From positions 1 through 64,000 of the forward strand of contig CAMCBV010000013.1 of the NCBI GenBank assembly GCA_945873125.1: 64,000 nt of DNA. The letters are read 5' to 3'. The DNA is from Prosthecobacter debontii. Lineage in GTDB: Bacteria; Verrucomicrobiota; Verrucomicrobiia; Verrucomicrobiales; Akkermansiaceae. The translations under genes and the position numbers were made by a program. The notes below the pieces were generated by a model. It saw only the letters and a program-made list of their open reading frames with translations, did no database searches and had not been told where the DNA came from. Position 1 is the stretch's first letter; every line of letters starts with the position of its first letter. This document shows, piece after piece, positions 688 through 34,851 of the stretch.

Positions 688-3600
688 TCACTCCAAGTCC
701 GAGTGCTTCAAGCCCTCGAAGAAGCAATCCACCTGGCCGAAGGGAACTTTCGTCGTCTCGTCGTATTCCACGTTGGTATAGAAAGCGATGACGTTGGTGC
801 CCTTTTTCAAATGTGCGACCTCACCGGGGCCCAGGGGCCAAGGCGCATAGTGGGGTTTGTTCTGCCACCATCCGTAGCCCACGATCGGGTGCCCGTTGAG
901 GTAAACCCTGAAGCCTTGCGGGTTCAGGATGCTCAGTCGGTAGGAGTCGTAGTCGAGTTTTTCCACCTCGAAGGTCGTGCGCGCGACGATAAACTCCCCT
1001 TTGCCCCAATCAGACTTATTGGTAAATGTATCATCGCCTTGTTTGTAAAGACCGGTGCCGATGGGCGCGTGCCCCTTGCTCCACTTGCTGTCGTCAAAAT
1101 CGGGCTTGAACCAATCTTTCATATCCTCCGCCATCTGGATGTCGCGATGGCGGGTCTTCTCACGGGTTGGGACTTGGTCTTTTTCCACGATGGGATCGAA
1201 AGATTTGAAGCGCCAGACAAGCTCTGACTTTGGCACTTTGCCAATCGGTTTCCAACCAGCGGTGGGGTTCCGGAGTTTCGCGAGGTCGATGATGGTGCTC
1301 ACGATACCCGGCCTATGGGCCTCTTCATAGTCCTTCGCGTTAAGCCGCTTGGCGATTTCCGGGCGGTAAACCGTATAGAGGATCTCCTCGAGCTCCTTGC
1401 GTTGATTGGAATCCAGTTTTTCCAGAACGGCGAAAAATCCGAATGATTCTCCGGCTGGATTTGCGCTTGGCGCGGCCACGATGCCGACGAGATCACCGGT
1501 TTTCAATGCGCTGAATCGCGATTGCAGGGCAGTGGCGAGTGCCACGGCAAGGTTGGGGTCATTGCGTAGGCAAATCTTCAGGGTTTCTATGACATTGTGA
1601 GCGCCCTCGGGGGCATGGTCACCGGGCTTGATCATGCCCGTGTCCACGCCTTTCCGCAGCGCTGCCAGGATAAGCTTGCCCGCTTCGCTGTCCGGTTTGT
1701 TTTGCTGCAGGACCGCGTTGAAGTGCTGCATCATCCACTCGCGGGGCATGGTGTGGTATTCACTAGTCGCCATCTCCAGGAGTGTCGGAAGGATTTTGAG
1801 GTATAGGGCATCATCTTTTTGAAGTCCTGAGAGCGCCGCGAAGGAGCAGTCACGAAGCCACCAATCGGAATGCTTGGTCCATGGCATGATGAGCGGCAGG
1901 CGTGTCTGGATTTCATTCGCCGGAGCGAACTTGAGCGCCATCAATGCACCGTTGACCACCCACAACGACTCCTTGGGGTCGGTCAGCATTTTCGTGATGC
2001 TTTTCAGCATCGCTGGGGTGAACTTATCCGTGGGGATGGGGCTATTTCCGATGCCAAACCAGTAGTTCCAGTCGATCATACCGTCCAGCGCGGCGCGGCG
2101 CACGCGCGGGTCCGGGTCTTCCAGGAGTTTTTCGATTTCATCGTAGGCATCTGTCGCCCGGAGCGCCTTGCCCGCCTGGGTGCGGATCATGTCGTTCCGG
2201 TGATAGACGTTCTTGAGAAACACTTCACGCGGCAGCGTTTTGATGTCCTTCTCTGGTTGGTGATAGCCTCCACCCAAAGCATAATAAGGAATATGCGTGG
2301 GTTGCTCGGGACCGTATTTCAAGTAGTTAGGGTTGTGTTCGAGGGAGAAGAACGCCAGATCGGCCTTGGTGCCCCAGAGGTTTTCGGGCAGGGTGTATTT
2401 TTGGGAGAACTTCGTTTTCGGCGCACCGGTGATGCGCAGCGTGCGCAAGGGCGCGGTGAAGGAGAATCCCATGCCGGGACCAGAGTGGCCGACTGCACTG
2501 CCGTAGAAGTCTAGCGTCGCGATGCCGATACTGCCGCCCGGTTCGCGGCTCAGATCGTGCCACCAGGTCAGGCGGTCCATCGACTCACGGAAAAGCGCAG
2601 GTTTTTCCTTCATCAGGTAGGAGGTGGTGATGCCGCGCCAGATGCCATCGCCGCGTCCATTATCAGCATGACCACATATCATCGACGAGTAGCTTTCGAT
2701 CGTCGACAAGGCCAGATATTTGCTGGCTTTCTGATAGGCGGTGGTGTCTCCGCTGGCACCTGCAGCGATCTGCATGGCGGCGGCGATCATACCGTCCTTG
2801 CCGTTGGAGCCGAGGCCGCCTTCTCCACGCTGATCACCGTAGGGAACCGTGCCGTGGCCGGCGAAGCGATAGAAGAAGCGCAGCGAGTTCAGCAAGGTCT
2901 TCTCATCGACATTCACGCCGCATTCCTTGCCCAGCAGCAATGTGGTGAGCACCTGTGCGCCTGCCGGGTTCATCAGGCCACCCGCCACATATGCCGGCCA
3001 GACTCCGCGGCCCCAGTGGGTCCAGCCGCTGTCGAACATCTGGCGCTCCTTCGCGTCGTCGCAGTAATATTGCAGGATGGGCAATACCGACTTGTCGCCG
3101 GTGCGCAGGTAGTATTCACCGCAGGCAATCCCGTTGTAGCCATTGTTCCAGGTGTGGTCGCCGATTGCTTTCACATCCTTCGGAAAGGCATCGAAGTAGG
3201 CTTTCACCCGAGGCAGGTATTTGTCATCGCCGGTGGAAAGCAGGAACAGGCAGGCGAGGGCACCCGGTATGCCGCCATCTTTGAATTTCTGCGGATCGGC
3301 ATAAAAGGCGGCGGCCTCATCGATGATGCGTTTTGACTTCGGGCAATTCAGCGGCCAGGTCTTGCTGTAAGCGCCGAGCACGGGAATCGTGACGGTTTCC
3401 TTGCGCTGGGTCTTGCCGTCAGCGGAGGTCACGTCAAAAACCATTTTGCCATCCGTGGCCTCTGCCTTGGTGAGGGCATTGCCCATCGCGACGAACGGAT
3501 CGAGCCCTTTGAGGGAGGTGCCATTGATTCCTGTTAGAAGCTCTTGCTTGGCGAATTTACCCTCGCACGGGGAGCCGGGCATCATTTCCTCCACTTTGAG

Positions 3601-3801
3601 GATCACGCCCGGATAGACCCGTGCCTTGATCCCGGTGGTGCCGATGACTCCGAAAAATCTCTCGCTGGCCGGATCCGGGCGGGTCTGGTATCTGAGATCG
3701 TCGGCGTTGTAATATCCCTTGCCGTCGCCTCCCCCGCCTGCGGCATGGAGTTGGTTGGCGAACAGGGACAAGATGAGGATGATGGATGATGATCGTTTCA
3801 T
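688..3801 (-). CDS. DUF6288-type PDZ/HEAT-repeat secreted protein with galactose-binding-like tail (copy 1)
   Basis: 1037 aa with a signal peptide ending at FANQLHA|AGGGG. Regions in order: a PDZ-like domain (about 50-135; GVILKVEEMMPGSPCEGKFA, then a GINGTSLKGLDP loop); an alpha/alpha-toroid-like region (about 150-500) with repeated HW/YYLRTGD helices and a WWHDLSREPGG segment; HEAT-like repeats (about 520-840; 'LLEDPDPRVRRAALDGM'). A beta-sandwich tail starts near residue 849 (GWKPIGKVPKSE ... DWFKPDFDDSKW ... FRVYLNGH) and closely matches a domain inserted in the esterase at 32069-33853. It is a paralogue of 10313-13777; the two agree closely to about residue 845 and then have unrelated C-termini. 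I recognise the core as DUF6288-like; its biochemical role is unknown. Carbohydrate binding or processing is inferred from neighbours. Confidence 0.72.
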   Translation of the reverse strand: MKRSSSIILILSLFANQLHAAGGGGDGKGYYNADDLRYQTRPDPASERFFGVIGTTGIKARVYPGVILKVEEMMPGSPCEGKFAKQELLTGINGTSLKGLDPFVAMGNALTKAEATDGKMVFDVTSADGKTQRKETVTIPVLGAYSKTWPLNCPKSKRIIDEAAAFYADPQKFKDGGIPGALACLFLLSTGDDKYLPRVKAYFDAFPKDVKAIGDHTWNNGYNGIACGEYYLRTGDKSVLPILQYYCDDAKERQMFDSGWTHWGRGVWPAYVAGGLMNPAGAQVLTTLLLGKECGVNVDEKTLLNSLRFFYRFAGHGTVPYGDQRGEGGLGSNGKDGMIAAAMQIAAGASGDTTAYQKASKYLALSTIESYSSMICGHADNGRGDGIWRGITTSYLMKEKPALFRESMDRLTWWHDLSREPGGSIGIATLDFYGSAVGHSGPGMGFSFTAPLRTLRITGAPKTKFSQKYTLPENLWGTKADLAFFSLEHNPNYLKYGPEQPTHIPYYALGGGYHQPEKDIKTLPREVFLKNVYHRNDMIRTQAGKALRATDAYDEIEKLLEDPDPRVRRAALDGMIDWNYWFGIGNSPIPTDKFTPAMLKSITKMLTDPKESLWVVNGALMALKFAPANEIQTRLPLIMPWTKHSDWWLRDCSFAALSGLQKDDALYLKILPTLLEMATSEYHTMPREWMMQHFNAVLQQNKPDSEAGKLILAALRKGVDTGMIKPGDHAPEGAHNVIETLKICLRNDPNLAVALATALQSRFSALKTGDLVGIVAAPSANPAGESFGFFAVLEKLDSNQRKELEEILYTVYRPEIAKRLNAKDYEEAHRPGIVSTIIDLAKLRNPTAGWKPIGKVPKSELVWRFKSFDPIVEKDQVPTREKTRHRDIQMAEDMKDWFKPDFDDSKWSKGHAPIGTGLYKQGDDTFTNKSDWGKGEFIVARTTFEVEKLDYDSYRLSILNPQGFRVYLNGHPIVGYGWWQNKPHYAPWPLGPGEVAHLKKGTNVIAFYTNVEYDETTKVPFGQVDCFFEGLKHSDLE

Positions 3802-10312: not shown

Positions 10313-13300
10313 TCATGGGACGATGAAGTATCTGAGTGATAAGTTGTCGATGGAGCCCTGGGTTCCTTTGGCGTCACGGCCCAGCCCGCAGACGATGGTG
10401 ATCTCCTTACCGACGTGTTTGGCGAGGTCCGCAGGGGCATAGGTCCTGGAGAATTTCTGCCATCCGCCGGTTAGTTGCGGATCGGTCGCTGATGTTGGTG
10501 TGACCTCCACGCCGTCTGCCAACAGCTTGAACACGATGGGAGTCACGGCGCCGGCGCCGTATCCCACAAGAACGTAGGTTACGTTGCCTTGAATTTTTCC
10601 GATCGGAGCGGCCGAAACGATCAGTCCGCCCTCTCGGCAAGCCCAGCCCGCACCGTTGCAACTGAAGGCATTGCCGCCATCCTTCATCCCCCCGGCCGCT
10701 AGGAACCCCTGCAAGTTCCAGTTTTGCGTGCCCCATGGGCCGGTGCCGCCATATTTGATCCAGCCGTCCCGGTCGTAGCCGATCCAGCCCGGGACGTCTG
10801 CAAGGATGCCCGATGTATTGTCGGAGAAGTTGAACTTTCCTCCGCTGGATAGTGTGGTGGCCGGCCCTACGCCTTTCGTGTAGCCCGAGATAGTCCCAGT
10901 GATGGTGGTCTGGCCCGGTTTGTAGATTGTGTCGAAACCACCATTCGGTATTTGCACCTGCACGAAGTCTGCAGCAGGGGTCGTCACACTGAAGGGAAGT
11001 GATGCGTTGCCCTCTTGACCCAGAGCATTGCGCATCTTCACCGTGTAGGTGTAGCTCGTGCCGGGCTCCAGGCTTGTGTCCGTGTAGACGGGATGGGTTG
11101 TCCATCCGCTGTCCGCTCCTCCCGGATTACCCGAGGTCTCATCGAAAAAGTATTCGATCGGCTCAAAGTCGCCGCGGCCCGGGGTCGCCCTCATGTCAAT
11201 ATCCAGAGCGCCACTGATCGACGGAGGTGAGGCAAACGTTGCTGGATCCGGCCCTGGGACGGCTACCTTCTCCTTGAGATTCGTCAGGTTCACGATGGCG
11301 CTAATTACGCCCGGCTTATGGCCCTCTTCATAGTCGTTGCTTTTAAGCCGCTTGATGATTTCCGGGCGGTAAGCCTTAAAGAGGATGTCCTTGAGCTCCT
11401 CGCGTTGTTTGGCATCGAGTTTTTCCAGAACGGCGGAAAATCCGCCAGGAGATGCCACAATGTCGACTATGTCTGAAGTTCTCAAGTCATTGAATCGCAG
11501 TTGCAGGGCAGTTGCGAGTACAGGAGCAAGGGCGGGGTCGTTCTGCAGGCAAAGTTTCAGGGTTTCTATGACGTTCCAAGCACTCACGCCGAGGTCACTG
11601 CGTTTGATCTCGTTTGTGTCCACGCCTTTACGCAGGGCGGCAACAATGAGTTTGCCTATGTCGCTCTCCGGTTTCTTTTTCTGCAGGACTCCGTTGAGGT
11701 GCTGCATCATCGTCTCGCGGGGCATGGCGTGATATTCACTGGTCGCCATTTTTAGGAGTGTGGGAAGGATTTTGACGTAGAGGGAATCATCTTTCTCAAG
11801 TCCGGAGAGCGCCCTGAAGGCCGCCTCGCGCAGCCACCAGTCGGAGTGTTTGGTCCAGGGCTCGATGAGCTTGTAGTTCTGCTGGATGTCCTTGGCCGGA
11901 GCGAACTTGAGTGCCAGCAGCGCGCCGTCGACCACCCACCATGCCTCCTTGGGATCGGAGAGCATTTTCGTGATGCTTTTCACCATCGCGGGGGTGAACT
12001 TGTCCGTGGGGATCGGGTTATTTCCTATGCAAAAAAAGTAGTTGTAATCGATCATACCGTCGAGTGCGGCGCGGCGCACGCGCGGGTCGGGGTCTTCTAG
12101 GAGTTTTTCGAGTTCATCGAAGGCATCGTTCGCGCGGAGAGCCTTGCACGCTTGGGTGCGGATCATGAATTGCCGGTGATAGACGTTCTTGAGAATTACT
12201 TCCCGGGGCAGGGTTTTGAGGTCGTTCTTGGGTTGGTGATACGCGCCGCCCAAAGCCCAATAGGGAACATGGGCGGGTTCCTCCGGGCCGTATTCCAGGT
12301 ATTTAGGGTTATGTTCGAGGGAGAGGAATGCGAGGTCGGCCTCGGTGCCCCATAGCTTTGTGGGCAGTGTGTAATCCTTGGAGAACTTCGTTTTCGGCGC
12401 ACCGGTGATGCGCAGCGTGCGCAGGGGCGCGGTGTAGGATAGCCCCATGCCGGGACCGGAGTGGCCGACTGGGCTGTCATGCAAAAAATTCAGTGTCGCG
12501 ATACCGATGCTGCCGCCCGGTTCACGGCTCAGATCGTGCCACCAGGTGAGGCGGTCCATCGACTCACGGAAGAGATCAGGCTTGTCCTTCATCAGATACG
12601 AGGTGGTGATGCTACGCCAGATGCCGTCGCTGCGCCCATCGTCACCATGGCCCATCACCATCGTCGAGTAGCTGTCGATCATCTCCAAGGCCAGATAGTT
12701 ACGGGCTTTTTCGTAAATGGTCACATCGCCGCTGGCACCTGCGGCGATCTGCATGGCGGCGGCGACCATGCCGTCCTTGCCATTGGAGCCGAGGCCGCCT
12801 TCACCACGGTGATTGCCGTAGGGGACCGAGCCGCGGCCGGCGAAGCGGTAGACGTGGAGGAGCGCGCCGAGCAAGGTCTTGTCATCGACATTCACGCCGC
12901 ATTCCTTGCCCAGCAACAGCGTGGTGAGCACTTGTACGCTTGCCGCGTGCAACACTCCACCCATATACCCGGGGTGGACACTCTTGGTCCCATAATGCGA
13001 CCACCCGCAGCCGTAGATCTGGTGTTCCTTCGCGTCGTCGCAGTAATATTGCAGAATGGGCAAGACCGACTTGTCCCCCGTACGCAGGTAGTATTCACCG
13101 CAAGCAATTCCGTTGTAACCATTGCTCCAGGTGCTCACGCCGATGTCTTTCACATCCTTCGGAAAGGCATCGAAGTAGGCTTTCACCCGGGGCAGATATT
13201 TGTCGTCGCCGGTGGAAAGCAGGAACAGGCAGCCGAGGGCGCCCGGAATGTCGCTCGAGTTGAATTTCTGCGGATCTGCATAAAAGGCGGCGGCCTCGTC

Positions 13301-13777
13301 GATGATGCGTTTTGACTTCGGGCAATCCAGCGGCCAGGTCTTGCTGTAGGAGCCGAGCACGGGAATCGTGACGGTTTCCTTGCGCTGGGTCTTACCGTCG
13401 GCGGAGGTCACATCGAAAACCATTCTGCCATCCGTGGCCTCGGCCTTGGTGAGGGCGTTGCCCATCGCGACGAACGGGTCTAGCCCTTTCAGGTCGGTGC
13501 CATTGATTCCTGTTAGAATCTCCCCCTTGGCGAATTTTCCTTCGGACGGGGAGCCGGGCATCATTGACTCGACCTTGAGGACTACGCCCGGATAGATCCG
13601 TGCCTTGAGCCCGGTGGTGCCGATGATGCCGAAAAAACTCTCGCCGGCCGGATTCGGGCGGGTTTGGTAGATGTGTTCTTCGGTATAATATGCTTGGTCG
13701 TTGCCGCCCCCGCCTGCGGCATGGAGTTGGCCAGCGAACAGGGACATGCTGAGGAGGATGATAGATGATCGTTTCAT
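10313..13777 (-). CDS. DUF6288-type PDZ/HEAT-repeat secreted protein (copy 2) with Fn3-like and jelly-roll tail
   Basis: Start chosen at ATG 13777 (MKRSSIILLSMSLFAGQLHA) by analogy with copy 1; the in-frame ATG at 13807 only adds ten residues (MKPTSFLIKH) that come from a leader cassette belonging to the SASA genes. Residues 1 to about 845 parallel copy 1: signal peptide, PDZ-like domain, toroid-like region and HEAT repeats. The tail is different: a CHB_HEX_C/Fn3-like domain ('ATFASPPSISGALDIDMRAT ... SYTYTVKMRNALGQEG'), then a last domain of about 200 aa starting 'VQIPNGGFDTIYKPGQ' with aromatic and glycine-rich strands, probably a galactose-binding-like beta sandwich. The whole looks like a scaffold or glycan-binding protein; no catalytic motif was recognised. 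Confidence 0.7.
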   Translation of the reverse strand: MKRSSIILLSMSLFAGQLHAAGGGGNDQAYYTEEHIYQTRPNPAGESFFGIIGTTGLKARIYPGVVLKVESMMPGSPSEGKFAKGEILTGINGTDLKGLDPFVAMGNALTKAEATDGRMVFDVTSADGKTQRKETVTIPVLGSYSKTWPLDCPKSKRIIDEAAAFYADPQKFNSSDIPGALGCLFLLSTGDDKYLPRVKAYFDAFPKDVKDIGVSTWSNGYNGIACGEYYLRTGDKSVLPILQYYCDDAKEHQIYGCGWSHYGTKSVHPGYMGGVLHAASVQVLTTLLLGKECGVNVDDKTLLGALLHVYRFAGRGSVPYGNHRGEGGLGSNGKDGMVAAAMQIAAGASGDVTIYEKARNYLALEMIDSYSTMVMGHGDDGRSDGIWRSITTSYLMKDKPDLFRESMDRLTWWHDLSREPGGSIGIATLNFLHDSPVGHSGPGMGLSYTAPLRTLRITGAPKTKFSKDYTLPTKLWGTEADLAFLSLEHNPKYLEYGPEEPAHVPYWALGGAYHQPKNDLKTLPREVILKNVYHRQFMIRTQACKALRANDAFDELEKLLEDPDPRVRRAALDGMIDYNYFFCIGNNPIPTDKFTPAMVKSITKMLSDPKEAWWVVDGALLALKFAPAKDIQQNYKLIEPWTKHSDWWLREAAFRALSGLEKDDSLYVKILPTLLKMATSEYHAMPRETMMQHLNGVLQKKKPESDIGKLIVAALRKGVDTNEIKRSDLGVSAWNVIETLKLCLQNDPALAPVLATALQLRFNDLRTSDIVDIVASPGGFSAVLEKLDAKQREELKDILFKAYRPEIIKRLKSNDYEEGHKPGVISAIVNLTNLKEKVAVPGPDPATFASPPSISGALDIDMRATPGRGDFEPIEYFFDETSGNPGGADSGWTTHPVYTDTSLEPGTSYTYTVKMRNALGQEGNASLPFSVTTPAADFVQVQIPNGGFDTIYKPGQTTITGTISGYTKGVGPATTLSSGGKFNFSDNTSGILADVPGWIGYDRDGWIKYGGTGPWGTQNWNLQGFLAAGGMKDGGNAFSCNGAGWACREGGLIVSAAPIGKIQGNVTYVLVGYGAGAVTPIVFKLLADGVEVTPTSATDPQLTGGWQKFSRTYAPADLAKHVGKEITIVCGLGRDAKGTQGSIDNLSLRYFIVP

Positions 13778-13790
13778 ATGCTTTATTAGA

Positions 13791-13835
13791 AAGGAAGTTG
13801 GTTTCATTGTTATTGATTCGTTGGAAATTATCGTG
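13791..13835 (-). repeat. leader cassette A, copy 4 (leader only, no signal peptide)
   Basis: The DNA just upstream of the DUF6288 copy-2 start carries the leader (CGAATCAAT) and first codons (MKPTS) of the SASA leader cassette, then diverges before the signal peptide core. It matches 33762-33873, 34751-34862 and 37312-37428. Confidence 0.7.
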
Positions 13836-19193: not shown

Positions 19194-19236
19194 TTCGCGG
19201 GTGGTGACGTGATGCTGCGGAGCGGGGGATGATTTT

Positions 19237-20655: not shown

Positions 20656-20658
20656 GAG

Positions 20659-23703: not shown

Positions 23704-23799
23704 TTTTCACGCCGGAGCTGTTCCGTGGCGCAAGTGTTTGTGGGATCGAGGTCGATGTTTTCGTGATATAAGTTCTAACGAATTCCTGAAATTCACTGC

Positions 23800-24609
23800 T
23801 CATTTTCCCAGCAACGTGGTCAGCTTAGGCTCCATTGCCTTCGCCCACTCACGGTAGCCCTCGACGTTGGGATGAAGTGCGTCGGGCATAAGATCCTTTC
23901 GCAACATGCCGTCTGTCGCGAGAAACGTTTCTTTAAGATCCAGCCAATAGACGGTTTTGTTGTCAGCGTATGTCTTCAGAATCCCGTTGACCTGGTCGTT
24001 GCGGACTCTGCCTTCATCCGTCGGCTTCCAATCACGGGGAAAGATGGCCAGGAGCAGGATTTTCGAATCGGGCAATCTGTGATGGACTTCTTTGAGTATG
24101 GCCAAAACGCCTTGGGCCGTATCCCGCCCTTCGTTCACCGGCTCGCCGCGATTATTGGTTCCGATCATGATGACCACGACTGCAGGATTACGGTCTTTCA
24201 TGCCGTCCAGTCCGCCGTCCTGAATATGCCACAACATATGGGAGGTTCTATCACCACTGGAGCCGATGTTGACCGCGTTGCGGTTGCCATAATGTTCGTT
24301 CCACACCTCGTGTCCCTCGCGGCTCCACCCGAACACGATGGAATCACCGATCATGAGAATATCCACTTTCTTTTCGGTCACCCACCTCTTGCGGTCTTCG
24401 TGGTGTCTTATGAACTCTGTCCATCCGCCTTTTGCCCGTTCTTCGGCTCGCGAATCAGCCTGGGTCGCAGAAATATCCTTTGCATAATTCGGATCTTCCC
24501 ACGGCATTTTCTGGCTAACGTCGGTCGCACAAACCGCTAAGCCAGATCCCGCTATGAATAGCACGCCTGCAAAAATGTTTTTCAATGATGAAGTTGATTT
24601 GTTATTCAT
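23800..24609 (-). CDS. SGNH/GDSL hydrolase (PAF-acetylhydrolase-like esterase)
   Basis: 269 aa with an N-terminal signal peptide. All SGNH blocks are present: GDSIVFGW (Ser, block I), GSSGDRTSHMLWHIQDG (Gly, block II), MIGTNNRGE (Asn, block III) and DALHPNVEGY (Asp/His, block V). An AIFPRD segment typical of the PAF-AH subunit group lies between. The start overlaps the stop of the GH32-like gene as ATGA (24606-24609), so the pair is translationally coupled. Likely an exported carbohydrate esterase acting on the same glycan as its neighbour. Confidence 0.88.
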   Translation of the reverse strand: MNNKSTSSLKNIFAGVLFIAGSGLAVCATDVSQKMPWEDPNYAKDISATQADSRAEERAKGGWTEFIRHHEDRKRWVTEKKVDILMIGDSIVFGWSREGHEVWNEHYGNRNAVNIGSSGDRTSHMLWHIQDGGLDGMKDRNPAVVVIMIGTNNRGEPVNEGRDTAQGVLAILKEVHHRLPDSKILLLAIFPRDWKPTDEGRVRNDQVNGILKTYADNKTVYWLDLKETFLATDGMLRKDLMPDALHPNVEGYREWAKAMEPKLTTLLGK

Positions 24610-26705
24610 TTTACGGGTTCCTCCGTCGCTTGGTTGCTTTCCTCCGGCTTTCCCGCAGAATAGATCGACTTCATCTTCCAGCTCCGGACCCGGGTCACCA
24701 CGGTATCCCCGCCTTTGCTGAAAAGCGTGACGCCCGTTTTCGCCTGGACATATTCACCTGAGGCGGCGACTGCGGCCTGGCGGTCATTTGCAAACACTTC
24801 GACAAAATTCTTGTCGATGAAGACCCGCAATACCAGGTCTTCACCTTTCTTCAGCTCGAACGGAGCTTCAACTTTCCCAACTTTCAGCAGCTTACTTTCG
24901 CCGGCAACAGCAATCCTCAAGCCGTTCCTGCCATCCTTGTCACAGAGAACATCGAGGCCGAACTCCGCTGCAAGCGGCGCCTTGACGGTCAATTCGAGTT
25001 CAAGTGCATCACCATTGACCTCCTTGAGTGCATAAGCAGCATCGCTCTTCACCGTGATGTCTTTCTCCTCTTGCTTGGCGTAGCGCAGGTCTTCCAGCTC
25101 TTTCAGCGGCCTTATCCTCAAGGCTCCGTCTTTCGGAAGCTCAAGCTCGCGGGGCAGTGACTGTACGCCAGTCGGGCTGATGGGCAGGCCCATGATCCAG
25201 GCCCACATGACGCGGCGCCCGTCCTTGGTCAGAACAGATTCAGGAGCAAAGTAGTTATTGCCGTTCCAGCTCATCATCGTGTAGAAATCAGGCAGATACT
25301 TCTCGTCCTTGAAATCACCGAGATAGTAGCCACAGCCACGTCCGTGGTTGATACAAAGAAGCATCCACTTGTTGCCGAGTTTGAACATGTTGGCACACGA
25401 GACATCATCGTCCTTGTTGACCCCCAGGGTCGCCGGCATGTCATCGTGCATCAGGAGGCCGAGGTTCACCCAATTCTTCAGGTCCCCGGATTTCATCAGG
25501 TGCGGCGGGCCGCCGCCGGAGATGCCATAATAGGTATCTCCATTGAGCCAGCAATCGGGATCCCATTGGCGTACTTTGGTGTCCTCACCCGAAGGTTCCT
25601 TGGGCATAATCGCCAGTGGTTTTGTCCATTTTTCCAAATTGTCATCCAGCGCGAATGCCAGCTGGTTCCTTCCTGACCACCACCCATGATAAATGATAGC
25701 AGGTTTGCCCTCCTTGGTGATGAACCCGGTGCCGCTGAACATGCCGTGCCCGGTGGACTTGGGCGTCAGCGTTGTCGGATGCCACTTCCAATGCACCATA
25801 TCGGTGCTGGAAACATGGGCGAAAGCCGGCCCGCCATCCTGGCCATAGATGTAGAACAAATGATACCGCCCCTTCCAGTAGAAGGCACAGTTCGGATCGC
25901 CGGGCTCGGCTCTGCCGGGACCGGGATGGATCAGGTGATAGGTCAACCAGTTCGCGGGCGGATTCTCCGGCATACCTGGAGTGACCAGACCATCCGGTGA
26001 CACGGTATGGGCTGCTTTCCCTGCGGCAATCAGCGTGGCGCCATCTGACGCAAGAACAAGTCGCCCGCCTTCTATTTTAGCGCCGCCGCTGAGCGCGTTG
26101 ACCGGGAACCGTCCCATCCTGTCGGTTTCCATGCCTGTCTCAAACGTCCACCATGCATAAGGTTTGATTTCGGATTCCTTGTTGGTTTCCAGCTTCCTGA
26201 TCTCCTCCGCCGACAGAGCCTTGTCATAGATCCTCGCCTCTTCAATCGATCCCCTCAGCGTCTGGGTAGGCCCTGCTCCTTCATGCCGCAGTCCAAAGAC
26301 GGCTTGATTCTGGGTTTTCAGCAAGTCTTGATTGCTTGCTTCGTATGACGCATACGGCTCGCCATTGCGGTAGATGGCTATCTGGCTGCCTTTGTAGACA
26401 ATGGCCATCTGGACCAGGGTCTTGTCATCGGCGTTCTCAACAGCGTTTGCCTGCTGGTCGCCTTGCGTTCGGGCGAAGCCTTCGCTTCCCGCCATCCACT
26501 TGCCGGCCACTCTTTCGCCAAAGACGATCCCGTCAAAGCGATCGCCTGACTGGATCGTGAGGGCGCTGCCGCCCTGCTGGGTCGTGTTTGCGAGACACAC
26601 CCAGGAGACGAGCGTCTTGTCGGTGCCTGCCGCCGCCTCGGCAACAGCCATACTGCACATGAACCCCGCGACTCCGATAACGATACTTGCCATTTTCATA
26701 CTCAT
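24606..26705 (-). CDS. LamG + GH32-like five-bladed propeller protein
   Basis: 699 aa from ATG 26705 (MSMKMASIVIGVAGFMCSMA, signal peptide); the longer open frame to 26867 is not supported, because the paralogue at 28011 starts at the same point. A LamG lectin domain (about 28-190) precedes a GH32-type catalytic domain. The nucleophile region is GDPNC (Asp270 in place of the usual WMNDPNG) and the stabiliser region is WDPDC (Asp382). The third motif, normally EC with the acid/base Glu, reads VSCANMF (Ser436-Cys437). The C-terminal GH32 beta sandwich is canonical (LRVFIDKNFVEVFANDRQA). Fold call is solid; fructan hydrolysis is uncertain because of the third motif. Confidence 0.8.
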   Translation of the reverse strand: MSMKMASIVIGVAGFMCSMAVAEAAAGTDKTLVSWVCLANTTQQGGSALTIQSGDRFDGIVFGERVAGKWMAGSEGFARTQGDQQANAVENADDKTLVQMAIVYKGSQIAIYRNGEPYASYEASNQDLLKTQNQAVFGLRHEGAGPTQTLRGSIEEARIYDKALSAEEIRKLETNKESEIKPYAWWTFETGMETDRMGRFPVNALSGGAKIEGGRLVLASDGATLIAAGKAAHTVSPDGLVTPGMPENPPANWLTYHLIHPGPGRAEPGDPNCAFYWKGRYHLFYIYGQDGGPAFAHVSSTDMVHWKWHPTTLTPKSTGHGMFSGTGFITKEGKPAIIYHGWWSGRNQLAFALDDNLEKWTKPLAIMPKEPSGEDTKVRQWDPDCWLNGDTYYGISGGGPPHLMKSGDLKNWVNLGLLMHDDMPATLGVNKDDDVSCANMFKLGNKWMLLCINHGRGCGYYLGDFKDEKYLPDFYTMMSWNGNNYFAPESVLTKDGRRVMWAWIMGLPISPTGVQSLPRELELPKDGALRIRPLKELEDLRYAKQEEKDITVKSDAAYALKEVNGDALELELTVKAPLAAEFGLDVLCDKDGRNGLRIAVAGESKLLKVGKVEAPFELKKGEDLVLRVFIDKNFVEVFANDRQAAVAASGEYVQAKTGVTLFSKGGDTVVTRVRSWKMKSIYSAGKPEESNQATEEPVK

Positions 26706-26708
26706 TTT
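26491..26708 (-). repeat. leader cassette C, copy 1
   Basis: 218 bp covering start codon, signal peptide and about the first 70 codons; it matches 31837-32054 with about five differences. Upstream of 26491 (towards the 3' end of the gene) the paralogues diverge abruptly. Confidence 0.85.
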
Positions 26709-26733
26709 TCTATCCCTTTCATTGCTCTTGTTC

Positions 26734-27915
26734 CTACAACAACGGTTTGATCGCCTCGGCCAGGCTGTAACCAACCATGCAGTAGACCCGGGCGCTGCCT
26801 TGATAATGACAACCCCAGTTGCAAACGTGTTTGTCGGATTCCTTCTTGGCTTGCTGGTATGCCGCATCCTCTGTCAGGGCTTTATCCTCGGCTTCCTTGA
26901 TGAGTTGCTCCATCTTCTTGGGGTCCGCGCTCTCCGGCTTGCCTTTCATCTGTTCATTGAGTTTAGCCGCAACCGCCGTCCTCACCCGCTGTCCTTCCGC
27001 CTCCATTTTCGCAGGCAACTCATCCAGCTCGGGATACCAGAAGGGCGCCGTGCGCACATAACCGACAGTGCCTTTCAATTCAGGGGCCGTCGCGATTTTC
27101 GCTTGGGCGGCTCTGAAATCGAGCAGATTTTTGTCGGTGGCTTTTTCACCGCCGACTCCGAGTTCACCCGCAACGGCAGGCATATTCGGAACCTTGAACT
27201 CTGCGCGCAGGTCCTGGACCATGTGGACAAAATTCGGGCAATATTCATCGTACACCTGCTGTCTGACATTGTCAGGCGCGCACAAATCGTTCCAGCCCTG
27301 GAACCAGACGAAGCCGCAGATCTCCGTCTTCAGCCCCTTCAACTGCGGAAAATCCGTATCCATATTGGCCAGGCACTCACGCACCTCTTTCACCATCTTG
27401 TGATAAGACGCGCCGACGTCCTCGGGCTTTGGCCAGTCGCCAATCTCGTAGGCCGCCTTGCCGGCGCTCGGCGGACGGAAACAACCGAACAGGTTGTGAC
27501 CGCCCCAGCAGGTCTTGATCAGCAGAACCGGTTCTTTTAAATGATCGCCCATCTCGATGCCGAACATCAGCTCCGGCCCGAACCAATCAGCTCCCCATGC
27601 GCCCATGCCTACGGACAGGGGCCGCTTGATGTGTTCGTTTTCTTTTTTGTAAGAGACAAACACATCGTCGCGCACGACGTACGAGCCGTCGGCGTTCTTG
27701 ATCTTCTTCAACAGATGGCCATGCGTCGGGTGCTTGCCCAGTTGGTCGAGCGTTTGCACACCGGCATGCCCTTCCATGTTGGATTGCCCGGCGAGGATAA
27801 ACACCTTCACAGGTCCTTTCAATTTCGCCTGGGGCTTACCAGCGTTGGCGTCTTCCGCGATTACTGCATTCGCCATTAACGACATCGCAACCATGCATAA
27901 TAGTGTGTTTTTCAT
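26734..27915 (-). CDS. SASA-type sialate O-acetylesterase homologue
   Basis: 393 aa from ATG 27915, which has AAGG at a good distance and opens into a signal peptide (MKNTLLCMVAMSLMANAVIA); the ATG at 27954 adds a basic, unlikely extension. SGNH esterase domain: KVFILAGQSNMEGHAG (nucleophile Ser), GPELMFGIEMGD, VLLIKTCWGGHNLFGCFRPP, GFVWFQGWNDLC, and the C-terminal WGCHYQGSARVYCMVGYSLA carrying the catalytic His. An Ala/Lys/Glu-rich helical hairpin (about 290-345) is inserted before the last block. It lies between two GH32-like genes. Confidence 0.85.
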   Translation of the reverse strand: MKNTLLCMVAMSLMANAVIAEDANAGKPQAKLKGPVKVFILAGQSNMEGHAGVQTLDQLGKHPTHGHLLKKIKNADGSYVVRDDVFVSYKKENEHIKRPLSVGMGAWGADWFGPELMFGIEMGDHLKEPVLLIKTCWGGHNLFGCFRPPSAGKAAYEIGDWPKPEDVGASYHKMVKEVRECLANMDTDFPQLKGLKTEICGFVWFQGWNDLCAPDNVRQQVYDEYCPNFVHMVQDLRAEFKVPNMPAVAGELGVGGEKATDKNLLDFRAAQAKIATAPELKGTVGYVRTAPFWYPELDELPAKMEAEGQRVRTAVAAKLNEQMKGKPESADPKKMEQLIKEAEDKALTEDAAYQQAKKESDKHVCNWGCHYQGSARVYCMVGYSLAEAIKPLL

Positions 27916-28010
27916 AGTAGCCTTTTTCCTTTTCTTTATACCTTCATTAACCATTCGTTACTTGAACATGAACCAAAATGTTACCATGCTCTCCTGCCAA
28001 AACGGTCCCC

Positions 28011-31000
28011 CTATTTGCTCTGCCACACGCTGATATCCTTGAACGCGCCCTGCCGGTCATCAGCCATGAACCCAATCCGGCCATTATAAGAAATCCGTTT
28101 AAGGTTCATCAGGTAATCATTCACATACAGCTCGAGCATGTCCTCCCTGATGAGAAGGCGAAACCTGGCCTCCGCCCCGAATTCCATGCCGCGAGCAGAC
28201 GTCTGTTCCGACTTGAAGTTACCGCCGTCAGCATTGATGTTTCCGAACGCCACCTCATCTTTGGAAAAGACAAGACCCTGGCCTTTTCCTCCACCCTGGT
28301 CAAAGAAGATCCGGGGACTGATCTGATCACCTGTCCCGGCTGCCGCCCCTACAATCGTCCCCTCGATGACGGTCGTCCTGGCGGGATCAGGTTTCCAATC
28401 CAGCATCTTCAGCGACGGAAAATATCCCTCGCCGGCAGGAACCAGGCTGATCTTGACGGGATTTGCCTTCAGCCCGTCATTGTTCTCCCACCACTTCAAA
28501 CGGAGAATGCCTTCGCGATCGATTTCGACGTCCTTAAACGGAGCGGCGAAGACTGCGCCGCCTGTGTAAAAATGATTGACCAGCGGGCCGCCGGGCGCGC
28601 TGTGGAAGAACCGGGGGAAATAGATGTCGCAGCCTGCGCCGAAGACATTGGAGTTTTTCTTCTGCGCGAGGAATGGCCCCTCGGGCTTGTCGCCGACCGC
28701 GACGCGCCCTTCACTGACGATGATGTAATACTTCTCGCCAATCTTCTGGATCCCGCCAAACTCGCCGCTGATATCCCCCTCGATTGGCGGAAGCGCGGTC
28801 CAGGTGATGCCGTCCTTGCTCTCGGCGAAACCGAACCCGCAGTGACGGTACGTCACCTTGGCGGGATCGGGATCAGCCGTGAAATACCCGTACAAGCTGC
28901 CGTCGGGACGCACGACCGTATCGATGCAATCCCAGCGCCCCTTCTCCTTGTACCAGCGCGTGTCCTGGACGAACCTGTGCTTCTCGTCAACCTTGGTCCA
29001 GTCGAGCAGATTCGTGGACGTTGCGAACATGATATCCTGCTTGTCCCCAAACCACTCGGAGTAGTTGATCACCCAGGTGTGGTTCCGGCCAAAGTCAGGA
29101 GACTTCCAGATATGGCCGGTTCCCATCCACGTCACGCCCCCGCGGGGCTTGATCAGCACGCCTTGCTCTTTCCAGTGGACGCCGTCCTCGGAGAGCGCCA
29201 GCTCGTGACCATCCCATTTGTTAAAATGTCCGGCGAGGTAATAGAGGTAATACCTGCCCTCGTGGAAATACGCCCAGGTATCCCAAATCTGACCCTTCCG
29301 GGAGGGAGTAAAGAAACCCGCGTGCACCGCGGGCGGCCGGTGTGAGACGTGTGCATAACCTTGGCCATCGAGAACCAGCGCGCCGTCCTTGATCTTGGCC
29401 GTGCCGATGAGTCGCGCGTCCGGATAATGGCCCATCCCATCCTTGACGCTTCCGCCGTCAAAGGTCCACCATCCGAGCGGTTTGGGCACAGTGGGGACGC
29501 CGAGCTTGAGCTGCGCGAGGGCCTCGCCATCCAGAGCCGTGTCATAGATGCGCGCCTCATCGATCGCGCCTTTGAGATATCCGTGCTGCTGGCCAACCAA
29601 GCACCGCAGCCCGAGATAGAGATCGCTCTTGGCCGGATAGGTTTGCTGGTTGGCGGCTTCGTAGGCGGCGTAGCGGTGCCCGTCGCGCCAGATTTCTATC
29701 TGTTTGTCACGATACACCACGGCGAGTTGCAGCCACTGTTCGGGGGTGGCGGCTTCCTGAGCCAGCGACTGCTGTTCTGTGGGACTTTGGGTGCGGCTGA
29801 AATTATGGCTGCCGGCCATCCAGCGGGCGGCGGCCCGTTCGCCAAAGGTGATGGCGTCGAATTCATCGCCATCCTGAATTGCGAGCACTCCGGAGCCGGT
29901 TTGGACCAGGTCGGCGAGGCGCACCCAGGCGACCAAGGTCTTATCGCGCAGCATTGTTCCAGCTGCAGAAGACGTGCATTTCACGGGATCCTCCCTCGCC
30001 TGGTTCTTTTCCTCCGGCTTTCCCTCAGGATAGATCGACTTCATTTTCCAGCTTCTCACATTTTTCACCGCGACATCCCCGCCCTTGCTGAAGAGGCTGA
30101 CGCCGACATCGTCCGCGTTGTGCGGCTGCATATAGACGACCGCCTGCCGGTCGTTGGCAAACACCTCGACCATGTCCTTATCGAGGAAGACGCGCAGATT
30201 GAGCGCTTCACCCGGCTTGAGCTCGAACGGGGCGGCGATCTTGCCGATGGCCAGCTTCTTGCTTTCGGCCTGGATGGTAATGGGGAAACCCGTGCCATCC
30301 GCGGTGCAAAACACGTTGACTCCGAATTCCTTGGCGCTGCCGGGCTCGATCGTGAGATTCAACTCGATGGTGTCGCCGGCGATCTTCTTGAACAAATGCG
30401 TGCTATCGCCCTTGACGGTGATGTTAGGTTCCACGGTTTCGGCGGCACGGAGTGTCTCGAGTTCCCGCAGCGGCTTGATTCGCAGCACGCCATCCTCGGG
30501 CAGGCTCAACTCGCGCGGCAGCGATTGGATGCCGCTCTGGACGCCGGGCAGATTGCACCACGACCACATGACACGCCGTCCGTCCGGGGTCAGCACGCTT
30601 TCCGGCGCGAAGAAATCCCAGCCCTGCCAGTTCATCATGGCGTGGAAATCCGGCAGATATTTCTCATCCTTGAAATCGCCCAGGTAATAGCGGCAGCCCA
30701 GGTTGTGGCTGATGCAGAGCAGCATCCACTTGTTGCCGAGTTTGAACATGTTGGCGCACGAGACATCCTCGCCCTTGTTGACCCCTAGGGACGCCGGCAT
30801 ATCATCGTGCATCAGTAGGCCGAGGTTCACCCAATCCTTCAGGTCCTTGGATTTCATCAGGTGCGGCGGGCCGCCGCCGGAGATGCCATAATAGGTATCA
30901 CCATTGAGCCAGCAATCGGGATCCCATTGGCGCACCTTAGATTCCTCACCCGAAGGCTCCCTGGGCATGATGGCCACCGGTTTGGTCCACTGTTCCAGTT

Positions 31001-32051
31001 GGTCATCGAGGGCGAAAGCCAACTGGTTCCTGTCGGAGCCCTCGCCATGATAGATGATGGCCGGCCTGCCATCCTTGGTGATGAATCCGGTGCCGCTATA
31101 CATGCCGTGCCCGGTCATTTTCGGGGTCAGCGTGGTCGGGTGCCATGTCCAGCGCACCATGTCCTTGCTGGAGACATGGGCGAACTTGATCCCGTTGTTG
31201 TTGTAGATGTAGTGCAGATGATAGCGGCCCTTCCAATAGAACGCGCAATTCGGATCGCCGGGAAAGGCCCCGCCGGGACCGGGGTGGGCAAGGTGATAGG
31301 TCAACCAGTTCGCCGGCGGATTGGCGGGCATCGCCGGGGTTTCGACCATATCCGCCAACTTCTTCGCGGCGGCGATCAACTCGCCGTTTTGCGTGAGGAT
31401 CAGGCGACCCCCTTCGATTTTGGCTCCGCCGTCCAGGTTGTTGACGGGAAAGCGTCCCATCCTGTCGGTTTCCATGCCCTTCTCAAAAGTCCACCAGGCG
31501 TAGGGCTTGATGGCGGACTCCTTGTTAGGTTCCAGTTTGCGGATTTCGTCGGCGGTGAGCGCGCGGTCGTAGATGCGCGCGTCGTCGATGGATCCCTGGA
31601 GGTTGTTGCCGGACCCTATCCCCTGGTGACGCAGGCCGAAGACGGCGATGGTGTCCTTGGTGCCGAGCAGGTCGATGTTGTTGGCCTCGTAGGACGCGCA
31701 GGGTTCGCCATTCCGATAGATGGTGATTCGGTTGCCCTGGTAAGCAAGCGCCATCTGGACCAGCGTCTTGTCATCCGCTTTCTCAACGGGGCTGGCCTGC
31801 TGGTCGGCCTGGGTGCGGGCATACATTTCGCTGCCGGCCATCCACTTGCCGGCCACTTTTTCGCCAAAGACGATCCCGTCAAATCGATCGCCTGACTGGA
31901 TCGTGAGGGCGCTGCCGCCCTGCTGGGTCGTGTTTGCGAGACACACCCAGGACACCAGCGTTTTGTCGGTGCCTGCCGCCGCCTCGGCAACAGCCATACT
32001 GCACATGAACCCCGCGACTCCGATAACGATACTTGCCATTTTCATACTCAT
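28011..32051 (-). CDS. fused two-enzyme protein: LamG-GH32-like followed by LamG-GH43/32-like module
   Basis: 1346 aa. Residues 1-691 parallel the whole protein at 24606-26705 (signal peptide, LamG, GH32-like propeller with GDPNC, WDPDC and VSCANMF, GH32 C-terminal sandwich ending QAREDPVK). At Cys692 (TGC, 29976-29978) the paralogue has its TGA stop. The frame then continues into a second LamG domain (DKTLVAWVRLADLVQTGSGV) and a second five-bladed propeller (about 920-1230; WAYFHEGRYYLYYLAGHFNK, GEFGGIQKIGEKYYIIV) of GH43/GH32 type, with a last beta sandwich (ELYVNDYLMNLKRI). The second half has no signal peptide of its own. A chimeric secreted glycosidase; substrates unproven. Confidence 0.78.
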   Translation of the reverse strand: MSMKMASIVIGVAGFMCSMAVAEAAAGTDKTLVSWVCLANTTQQGGSALTIQSGDRFDGIVFGEKVAGKWMAGSEMYARTQADQQASPVEKADDKTLVQMALAYQGNRITIYRNGEPCASYEANNIDLLGTKDTIAVFGLRHQGIGSGNNLQGSIDDARIYDRALTADEIRKLEPNKESAIKPYAWWTFEKGMETDRMGRFPVNNLDGGAKIEGGRLILTQNGELIAAAKKLADMVETPAMPANPPANWLTYHLAHPGPGGAFPGDPNCAFYWKGRYHLHYIYNNNGIKFAHVSSKDMVRWTWHPTTLTPKMTGHGMYSGTGFITKDGRPAIIYHGEGSDRNQLAFALDDQLEQWTKPVAIMPREPSGEESKVRQWDPDCWLNGDTYYGISGGGPPHLMKSKDLKDWVNLGLLMHDDMPASLGVNKGEDVSCANMFKLGNKWMLLCISHNLGCRYYLGDFKDEKYLPDFHAMMNWQGWDFFAPESVLTPDGRRVMWSWCNLPGVQSGIQSLPRELSLPEDGVLRIKPLRELETLRAAETVEPNITVKGDSTHLFKKIAGDTIELNLTIEPGSAKEFGVNVFCTADGTGFPITIQAESKKLAIGKIAAPFELKPGEALNLRVFLDKDMVEVFANDRQAVVYMQPHNADDVGVSLFSKGGDVAVKNVRSWKMKSIYPEGKPEEKNQAREDPVKCTSSAAGTMLRDKTLVAWVRLADLVQTGSGVLAIQDGDEFDAITFGERAAARWMAGSHNFSRTQSPTEQQSLAQEAATPEQWLQLAVVYRDKQIEIWRDGHRYAAYEAANQQTYPAKSDLYLGLRCLVGQQHGYLKGAIDEARIYDTALDGEALAQLKLGVPTVPKPLGWWTFDGGSVKDGMGHYPDARLIGTAKIKDGALVLDGQGYAHVSHRPPAVHAGFFTPSRKGQIWDTWAYFHEGRYYLYYLAGHFNKWDGHELALSEDGVHWKEQGVLIKPRGGVTWMGTGHIWKSPDFGRNHTWVINYSEWFGDKQDIMFATSTNLLDWTKVDEKHRFVQDTRWYKEKGRWDCIDTVVRPDGSLYGYFTADPDPAKVTYRHCGFGFAESKDGITWTALPPIEGDISGEFGGIQKIGEKYYIIVSEGRVAVGDKPEGPFLAQKKNSNVFGAGCDIYFPRFFHSAPGGPLVNHFYTGGAVFAAPFKDVEIDREGILRLKWWENNDGLKANPVKISLVPAGEGYFPSLKMLDWKPDPARTTVIEGTIVGAAAGTGDQISPRIFFDQGGGKGQGLVFSKDEVAFGNINADGGNFKSEQTSARGMEFGAEARFRLLIREDMLELYVNDYLMNLKRISYNGRIGFMADDRQGAFKDISVWQSK

Positions 32052-32068: not shown

Positions 32069-33853
32069 CTATTTCTGTAAAGCCAGCAGGGCCTCGGCAA
32101 ACGCCTTGCCAATCTGGGATAAGATCTTCGCGCTGCCGAAATAGTGGTAGCCGCCATTGGAGGCGCCTTTGAGAGCCTCCATGTCTTTGGGCGAAAAGAC
32201 TTCCTCCAAGGCTAGATCGAGTTTCTTCTGGTCAGCTTTGGTGATTCCCTCAATCCGCACATCGATCCCGGCAAAGCTTTCCGAGGATGTGCCCCCACCG
32301 TTATATATTTCATTGGAATAGGCCGCCAATACGTTCTTTCCCTTCTTTAATAATTTATCCTGGTCCTTGTTGAGGACGATGGAAGCATAACGCACATGGC
32401 CCGGTGAGCGGTTGGTGGTGTGAATCTTTTGTCCGTTCAAATAGATATGGAATCCTTGGTGACCTATTACCATAGCCGCAATGCGATAGGATTCGCAGTT
32501 GAGTTCTTCGACTTCAAACGTTGAACGCATCAGCAGGAATTCTCCCGCTCCCCACCTTGAGGGGAACTTATCAAAGTTGAGTTCGTGGAGGGTGTGTCCC
32601 CAGTTCTCAAAAAAGCCCTTTCCAATAGGGGCCTTGCCGGATGTCCATTTGCTGTCATCGAAGTCGGGCATGAACCAATTCTCCATCCCGGCTGGCAGTG
32701 TGATGTCACGGAACTGTCTGGCACTTTTTTCCATCTGGTCCTTCTTCTCTGTGGCATCCACCGTAGTGAAGCGCCAGATCTGCTCTTCTGGCAGGGACTT
32801 ACCAATCGGCTTCCAGTAGTTATTCCATTTCCCTTCCGTGTCTAAAGTCGCATCTTTTTTCAATGAGTATGCCGTGGCGAGGATGTTGTTATACGCGTCC
32901 TGATTCTCTAATGCGGCGGCAATGTCATGATCCCAGAAGGGCGCGGTATCTACAGCCACCACATTGCCCTTGAACTCGGGCATGTCGGCCGGTGCGGCCA
33001 TGGCCTTGCGGAAATTCACGTTTTTCTCACCGTCGACACCCAGCACGCCGATCACGAAGGGCATCTTCGGAGCTGACAGGTCTTTGCGAACATCGCGAAT
33101 GAAGTGTGACATCAAGCGCGAGTATTCATCATAATTCCCATGGGGGTAGGTCTGCCCATCGACCAGATCGTTAAAACCCTGAAACCAGACAAATCCGGCC
33201 AACTCATAGCCCGCCTTCTCGTCATACTCCGGACAAACCTGCTTGATGTCCTTGGTGACTTTCCTGACATGCTCAATCATCGCTCGGTACATCACACCTG
33301 AGGCGGCATCCTTTTCTTCCTGCCATTGTTTCCGGTCCTCGAGTTTAGGAACTCCGTGAGCACCCTGGGGATACTGATCCCACTCATCTTGAACCACCTT
33401 GGGCAGCTTATACTGCCCGGCACTGGGCGGACGGAAATCGGTGTGCAGGCTCCGGCCGCCCCAAGAGGTCTTGATGATCAGGACAGGCTCCTTGAGCATC
33501 TTCTCAGTATAAATGCCGAAGGTAAACTCCGGTCCGATCTTACCGTCCGACGCACCGAATCCGGCTGTCAGTTTGCCCGTCTTCACAAGCATGTCAGAGT
33601 ACTGGTTGCCGCCGCAACCGAGCGACGTAATCCAGACTTTCTCGCAGACCCTTGGCTTGCCCTCGGCATCACGCATCTCCTTGAGGATAGGCGCCGTCAA
33701 CGGGTCTTTACCGACGTAATCGAAGGTCGAAATGTCCGCATGCCCCTGCATATTCGACTGGCCGGCGAGGATGAACACCTTGAGCGGCTTGGCGAAGGAG
33801 ATGGATGAGAGGGCGCACAGCAGCGCCGCGGTTAGGATTGAAGTTGGTTTCAT
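32069..33853 (-). CDS. SASA-type esterase with an inserted galactose-binding-like domain
   Basis: 594 aa; signal peptide MKPTSILTAALLCALSSISFA, then KPLKVFILAGQSNMQGHAD (GQSNM at 31-35, Ser33). GPEFTFGIYTEKML, VLIIKTSWGGRSLHTDFRPP and GFVWFQGFNDLVDG complete the first part of the SGNH fold. At about residue 345 the fold is interrupted by a beta-sandwich domain of roughly 190 aa (WKPIGKSLPEEQIWRF ... MPDFDDSKWTSGKAP ... FHIYLNGQK). The esterase then resumes with GASNGGYHYFGSAKILSQIG (catalytic His570) at the end. The inserted domain matches the tail of the DUF6288 protein at 688. Expected to deacetylate a glycan in the periplasm or outside the cell. Confidence 0.82.
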   Translation of the reverse strand: MKPTSILTAALLCALSSISFAKPLKVFILAGQSNMQGHADISTFDYVGKDPLTAPILKEMRDAEGKPRVCEKVWITSLGCGGNQYSDMLVKTGKLTAGFGASDGKIGPEFTFGIYTEKMLKEPVLIIKTSWGGRSLHTDFRPPSAGQYKLPKVVQDEWDQYPQGAHGVPKLEDRKQWQEEKDAASGVMYRAMIEHVRKVTKDIKQVCPEYDEKAGYELAGFVWFQGFNDLVDGQTYPHGNYDEYSRLMSHFIRDVRKDLSAPKMPFVIGVLGVDGEKNVNFRKAMAAPADMPEFKGNVVAVDTAPFWDHDIAAALENQDAYNNILATAYSLKKDATLDTEGKWNNYWKPIGKSLPEEQIWRFTTVDATEKKDQMEKSARQFRDITLPAGMENWFMPDFDDSKWTSGKAPIGKGFFENWGHTLHELNFDKFPSRWGAGEFLLMRSTFEVEELNCESYRIAAMVIGHQGFHIYLNGQKIHTTNRSPGHVRYASIVLNKDQDKLLKKGKNVLAAYSNEIYNGGGTSSESFAGIDVRIEGITKADQKKLDLALEEVFSPKDMEALKGASNGGYHYFGSAKILSQIGKAFAEALLALQK

Positions 33854-33888: not shown

Positions 33889-34851
33889 TTACTTCAACAG
33901 GCTCTTCATCCCCTCACCCGCTGCTTCGCCGATCAGAAAGTAGCTCTCCGCATTGGCATACCAGTGATGTCCATGTTCGGGACAGGGCGAGAGTTCTGGC
34001 GGCCGGGCGAAATCGGTGGTGTGAACAAACAGCGCATTCTTGATCCGCTTGGTTCCTTCTTCCTGCGCTTTTCTGAATTCAAACATCGCGCCCTCAGTCA
34101 CGGGACCGCCATTGCCAAGCTCGCCGACCACCACCGGCATGTTCGGCACCTTGAATTCCTTGCGGAGATCGCTGACCAGGTTGACGAGAAGCTGCGCATA
34201 TTCGGGGATCGCCTGTGGGGTGACCATGTCGTTATAGCCCTGCTGCCAGTAAAAACCCGCGATTTCGTAATCCTGCCCGCCAAGCTCAGCCAAGGCGGCA
34301 CGGACTTCTTTCACCATATTGCGATAAGACTGCCCAATGTCCTCGGGTTTTGGCCATTCGCCAGTATCATAGGCCGGCTTGCCGGAACTTGGCGAACGGA
34401 AATGCCCGTGCAGGCTGTGCCCGCCCCACGCGGTTTTGATCAAAAGTACCGGCTCCTCAAAGTAGTCGCCAAGGACAAACCCGAACCCAAGCTCGGGTCC
34501 CATGTGCCGTCTCGAACCGTCTGCGGCATAACCTGTGTAGCCCACCGAGAGGCCACCTTTCAGGATCTTGTCACCGCCAACTTTGAATGAGATCTGCACA
34601 TCATCCCGGACGACCCATTCCCCTTTTTCATTCTTGAGCTTTTTCATCTTCTCGGCGCTCTTCGAGTGTTTCATCGACCAGACCAAGTTGCCCTTGTCTC
34701 CGTTGACGCCGTCATCATGATCCACCGAGCCCTGCCCTTCCATGTTGGACTGGCCTGCAAGGATGAAGACCTTGATAGGCTTGGCGAAGGAGATCGGTGA
34801 GAGGGCACATAGTAGCCCTGCGGTTAGGATTGCCGTTGGTTTCATGGTCAT
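33889..34851 (-). CDS. SASA-type sialate O-acetylesterase homologue
   Basis: 320 aa (start ATG 34851; ATG 34845 is equally possible and matches the start of the gene at 33853). Signal peptide (ILTAGLLCALSPISFA), then KPIKVFILAGQSNMEGQGS (nucleophile Ser35), GPELGFGFVLGDYFEEPVLL, KTAWGGHSLHGHFRSPSSGK, GFYWQQGYNDMVTPQ, and the ending HGHHWYANAESYFLIGEAAG with the catalytic His. It is the minimal form of the esterase, without additional domains. 35 bp separate it from the next gene. Confidence 0.88.
   Translation of the reverse strand: MTMKPTAILTAGLLCALSPISFAKPIKVFILAGQSNMEGQGSVDHDDGVNGDKGNLVWSMKHSKSAEKMKKLKNEKGEWVVRDDVQISFKVGGDKILKGGLSVGYTGYAADGSRRHMGPELGFGFVLGDYFEEPVLLIKTAWGGHSLHGHFRSPSSGKPAYDTGEWPKPEDIGQSYRNMVKEVRAALAELGGQDYEIAGFYWQQGYNDMVTPQAIPEYAQLLVNLVSDLRKEFKVPNMPVVVGELGNGGPVTEGAMFEFRKAQEEGTKRIKNALFVHTTDFARPPELSPCPEHGHHWYANAESYFLIGEAAGEGMKSLLK

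Follow-up and report, generated by a model that had tools for sequence, protein, structure and literature searches.

A predicted GH2-N-like domain inserted in SASA-family esterases of Verrucomicrobiota and Planctomycetota and shared with DUF6288 proteins

How did one domain come to lie inside an esterase and at the tail of a DUF6288 protein in a single locus of Prosthecobacter debontii, and what might it do in each? The stretch analysed (hereafter the window) comprises the first 64,000 nucleotides of contig CAMCBV010000013.1 (assembly GCA_945873125.1). An earlier note on this DNA had recognized a domain of about 190 amino acids interrupting an SGNH esterase ahead of its catalytic His block, the same domain at the end of a DUF6288 protein, and two sister esterases lacking it, and had concluded that a carbohydrate-binding unit is mobile within the locus, between tail and internal positions. 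The three observations were borne out, but movement as a recent event was not. SASA, GDSL, GH127 and GH32 genes are found near the esterase, and the GH127 and GH32 neighbours suggest a glycan-degradation locus. A GH127 protein and two GH32-type proteins with laminin-G-like domains adjoin the esterases (16974-32051), and an esterase resembling CE20 (PDB 9ega, E 6e-53) but lacking the ancillary domain of that family is encoded at 3880-5724. The features of the esterase and its sisters are:

32069..33853, minus strand: SASA-family SGNH esterase with an internal domain, 594 aa (Pfam PF03629)
33749..33763, minus strand: block I GQSNM, residues 31-35, with the nucleophile Ser33 (invariant across the homologue alignment)
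33167..33187, minus strand: block III WFQGFND, residues 223-229, upstream of the insert (near invariant across the homologue alignment)
32816..32929, minus strand: N-side arm of the hairpin bearing the insert, residues 309-346 (model helix 309-325; aligned with the hairpin of homologues without an insert)
32231..32815, minus strand: inserted domain, a predicted beta-sandwich, residues ~347-541 (identity to the DUF6288 tail and structural match to GH2 N-terminal domains)
32387..32419, minus strand: loop of residues 479-489, reading TTNRSPGHVRY; a WW motif (xWWxDxPxY) occupies this loop in the majority of internal copies and of subtype-A tail copies
32168..32230, minus strand: C-side arm of the hairpin, residues 542-562 (model helices 539-552 and 555-561)
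32144..32146, minus strand: catalytic His570 (GGYHYFGS), downstream of the insert (invariant across the homologue alignment)
26734..27954, minus strand: sister SASA esterase without the insert (aligns on either side of it)
33889..34851, minus strand: sister SASA esterase without the insert (aligns on either side of it)

The esterase matches PF03629 well above the Pfam cut-off (E 4.9e-18, 66 bits, cut-off 24.8), and its SGNH blocks are all conserved in the homologue alignment (S33, W223-D229 and H570). The SGNH part follows the signal and starts at about residue 22, and the His block extends to the C-terminus, with N- and C-terminal flanking beta-sandwiches both absent. Residues 568-570 of the His block (32144-32152) read GYH, not the usual DxH, as they do in close homologues. 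The insert, about three quarters of which falls within the range first given for it (32330-32830), aligns from residue 347 to 541 with residues 850-1035 of the DUF6288 protein (78/196 identical, 40%, 109 positives, E 4e-38; BLASTP). At the same position the sister at 26734 has a helix-rich stretch of ~60 aa and the sister at 33889 a short loop. Two further copies of the domain are present in the same genome, one in a 1209-aa DUF6288 protein (contig C11) and one at the C-terminus of another SASA esterase (C15).

An AlphaFold2 model of the esterase, built on 31 aligned sequences (pLDDT 74, and ~55 around His570), resembles SGNH esterases over residues 22..594 (Z 15.9-18.5), with 2apj and 9ega both at Z 18.5. 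Residues 346-539 of this model, compared alone, have a jelly-roll fold and match GH2 N-terminal sandwiches (2x05, Z 10.3; 5uj6, Z 10.1; LacZ, Z ~9.9), with Z 9.6-10.3 across about 137-161 residues. A PDB profile search with the inserted domain found the rhamnosidase 3w5m (E 6e-4), and the best sub-threshold Pfam matches of the domain are the sugar-enzyme sandwiches PF08531, PF13364 and PF02837; the Glyco_hydro_2_N and Bac_rhamnosid_N cut-offs are not reached, the window copy scoring, among the matches listed, 19.0 bits against a cut-off of 25 for PF08531. The N-terminal part of the domain is conserved in a pattern of its own (WKPxG ... LPxGMENW ... PDFDDSKW). The insert interrupts a helical hairpin, and homologues without it have a helix-rich hairpin at the same place. 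Since residues 346-539 match GH2 N-domains separately from the SGNH part, the model indicates an independently folding GH2-N-like (galactose-binding-like) beta-sandwich at the tip of the hairpin, between block III and the His block.

The second host of the domain belongs to a family on which our literature search found no paper. Its features in the window are:

688..3801, minus strand: DUF6288 protein, 1037 aa, with a PDZ-like region, an (alpha/alpha)6 barrel, HEAT repeats and a sandwich tail (PF19805 and model)
697..1254, minus strand: tail copy of the domain, residues 850-1035 (sequence match to the insert; tail pLDDT ~30 in the model)
10313..13807, minus strand: second DUF6288 protein, without the tail domain (PF19805, E 1e-117; no match to the domain)

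The tailed protein matches PF19805 with 394 bits (E 1e-117, cut-off 26.3). We read residues 58-137 as PDZ-like from sequence and strands; in the predicted model, residues 515-845 form HEAT repeats and the barrel (146-454) resembles GH76 mannanase (Z 22.6), sugar 2-epimerases (Z ~20) and GH88/GH105 enzymes (Z ~19). This predicted fold, of carbohydrate-enzyme type, makes DUF6288, including both window proteins, a candidate carbohydrate-active family. SASA and DUF6288 proteins are also linked where the domain is missing, being encoded by neighbouring genes or fused in a single frame (L031, L038, L051, L052, L054, L057 and others). One-frame DUF6288-SASA fusions, with or without the insert, are found in loci L021, L022, L025, L031, L038, L051, L052, L054, L057, L063, L071, L076 and L081.

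A contig search returned 23 more full-length homologues that contain the insert (61-84% identical), from Verrucomicrobiota and Planctomycetota, together with many homologues lacking it. What looked like a tail copy in locus L028 proved to be a gene with the internal copy and a broken reading frame. The 67 domain copies placed in a tree are split by a fully supported branch into subtype A, with 45 copies (30 internal to esterases and 15 at DUF6288-type tails), and subtype B, with 22 (10 at esterase C-termini and 12 in DUF6288-type proteins, there followed by ~146 aa); the copies of the truncated loci L096 and L124 were assigned to a subtype by tree position. Grouping of the domain by host enzyme is rejected, as forcing all esterase copies together costs a dlnL of 166 (p 1e-41), and the A-bearing and B-bearing esterases occupy different deep branches of the esterase-core tree. 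Each subtype is present on both enzymes, and the partner genes are usually neighbours: we verified six A pairs (L005, L006, L010, L012, L026 and L147, and probably also G024:C251) and 13 B pairs (L133, L134 and L136-L146), counting duplicate listings of loci L006, L009, L010, L012 and L017 once. All verified pairs are same-strand neighbours with gaps of up to about 9 kb, and none is mixed. Tentatively, the domain may be a new family that both paired enzymes acquired twice, with matched domains marking partners through a shared target or physical pairing, although we consider this doubtful.

The earlier note had left the age of the exchange to a DNA alignment of the two window copies. A recent transfer, in which recombination between neighbouring genes copied the DUF6288 tail into the esterase or the reverse, would suit the presence of both copies within 32 kb and the habit of SASA and DUF6288 genes of being neighbours or fused. 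However, the copies share 40% amino acid identity, their third codon positions are 33% identical against 28% expected, and only 2/21 fourfold sites agree, so that synonymous sites are near saturation. All 30 internal copies furthermore form one clade that spans phyla and is separate from the tails (support 99/98 and then 100/99), and the nearest homologue, L005, has the same insert at 77% identity. Clade structure and near-random third positions speak against recent exchange between the two copies, and a recent transfer within the locus is very improbable. The esterase-core tree, with the insert left out, also places the insert carriers together, save the poorly placed distant member L118. Near-random third positions, the single internal clade and the core tree therefore point to one old gain and no traffic within the locus, the insert having been gained once, long ago, and retained since. 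The domain did pass between the SASA and DUF6288 families anciently. Transfer from DUF6288 to esterase was not established as its direction: the domain tree nests the internal copies among A-type tails, yet tail monophyly is not rejected (p 0.18), so the nesting does not fix the direction. An origin of the insert as an extension of the SGNH fold itself, which structure prediction might have revealed, is less credible still. The hairpin is already present in homologues without the insert, but the predicted model of the esterase copy shows an independent sandwich that matches GH2 N-domains as a unit, and the occurrence of the same domain outside SGNH proteins, at the DUF6288 tail, contradicts such an origin, as does its place at the C-terminus of other esterases.

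The core and domain trees conflict for the window protein, L005, L006, L007 and L008 (AU p 9e-6 and 2e-6, for groups picked after the trees had been seen). The conflict is explained by a breakpoint near residue 220: the N-terminal part of the window protein and L005 resembles L006/L007, and the C-terminal part, including the domain, resembles L008. The domain thus travelled between esterase orthologues with the C-terminal half of the gene, not alone.

As to function, the explanation that we somewhat favour as a whole is that an old, once-gained GH2-N-like insert serves a SASA/CE6-like acetylesterase as a module for substrate recognition and as a lid. The hairpin would hold the sandwich beside the active site, where, like the ancillary domain of CE20, it may position a glycan chain that bears acyl groups; on DUF6288, the relative of the domain would target its host protein to this glycan or a related one. 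The name carbohydrate-binding, which the earlier note had used, is one that we infer from fold and genomic context. The WW loop is the best candidate for a binding loop. A caution for the lid reading is that the WW motif has been lost from loop 479-489 in the window esterase itself and in four relatives (L005, L008, L094 and L013); the ligand of these copies has possibly changed, or is absent. A structural spacer or solubility element without a ligand would fit with many of the most conserved residues of the domain being Trp, Gly and Pro, which may be fold-determining, but the internal copies listed retain 54-77% identity to the window copy and most keep the conserved aromatic loop, making a mere spacer improbable. 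We give about as little credence to the domain being a docking or pairing module, by which matched esterase and DUF6288 copies bind each other or a common scaffold. The sharing of each subtype by both partners, the rejected grouping by host and the unmixed neighbour pairs speak for docking. Against it, all ten Planctomycetota genomes sampled (G392-G401) have an internal copy and none has a copy in a frame of standalone DUF6288 length, their copies lying either in frames no longer than an esterase or in fusions of DUF6288 with an esterase; a tail copy is therefore not needed for keeping the internal one. The loop is also altered in the esterases of the window and L005 while their DUF6288 loop retained WW, and the fold is typical of accessory domains in sugar enzymes. 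The domain, which defines a family without a Pfam match above cut-off, links two enzyme families of Planctomycetota and Verrucomicrobiota that are widespread and poorly characterised, and offers a handle on the role of DUF6288. We regard the matched subtypes across these two partner families as the most interesting part.

Among known systems, the best sequence matches of the catalytic part of the esterase, which are also among its best structural matches, are 2APJ and 1ZMB, which we take to be CE6-type esterases; these are compact single domains without an insert, unlike the window esterase. The insert itself is alike in fold to the N-terminal sandwiches of GH2 enzymes and rhamnosidases (PF02837, PF13364 and PF08531), from which it differs in its weak sequence similarity, below Pfam cut-offs, and in its distinct conserved N-terminal part. 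Coronavirus haemagglutinin-esterases have a haemagglutinin (lectin-type) domain inserted in a related esterase fold (PMC9063846), but they are viral and differ in both insertion site and domain, the likeness being one of description only. In CE20 enzymes with an ancillary (X448) domain, such as XacXaeA (7KMM) and PpCE20_II (9EGA) (PMC8245568; PMC12313940), this domain is GH2-like (PF02837/PF13364), is joined in through a helical linker, makes up the cleft for the substrate and has an effect on kinetics (PMC12313940), and the sandwich lies over the SGNH active site (PMC12313940; PMC8245568). As in CE20, a SASA/SGNH esterase is here split, according to the predicted model, by a GH2-N-like beta-sandwich on a helical linker; the likeness is one of fold, no CE20 chain being among the matches listed in a PDB sequence search with the domain. 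CE20 enzymes also have flanking N- and C-terminal sandwiches, which the window esterase lacks. The CE20 insert enters before block III (XacXaeA 217-396), whereas that of the window esterase enters between block III (223-229) and the His block, and we therefore read it, by analogy, as a putative substrate-recognition lid acquired independently of CE20. This would be a second site of insertion of a GH2-like sandwich in an SGNH esterase, and the two sites raise the question of whether such inserts repeatedly act as a substrate lid.
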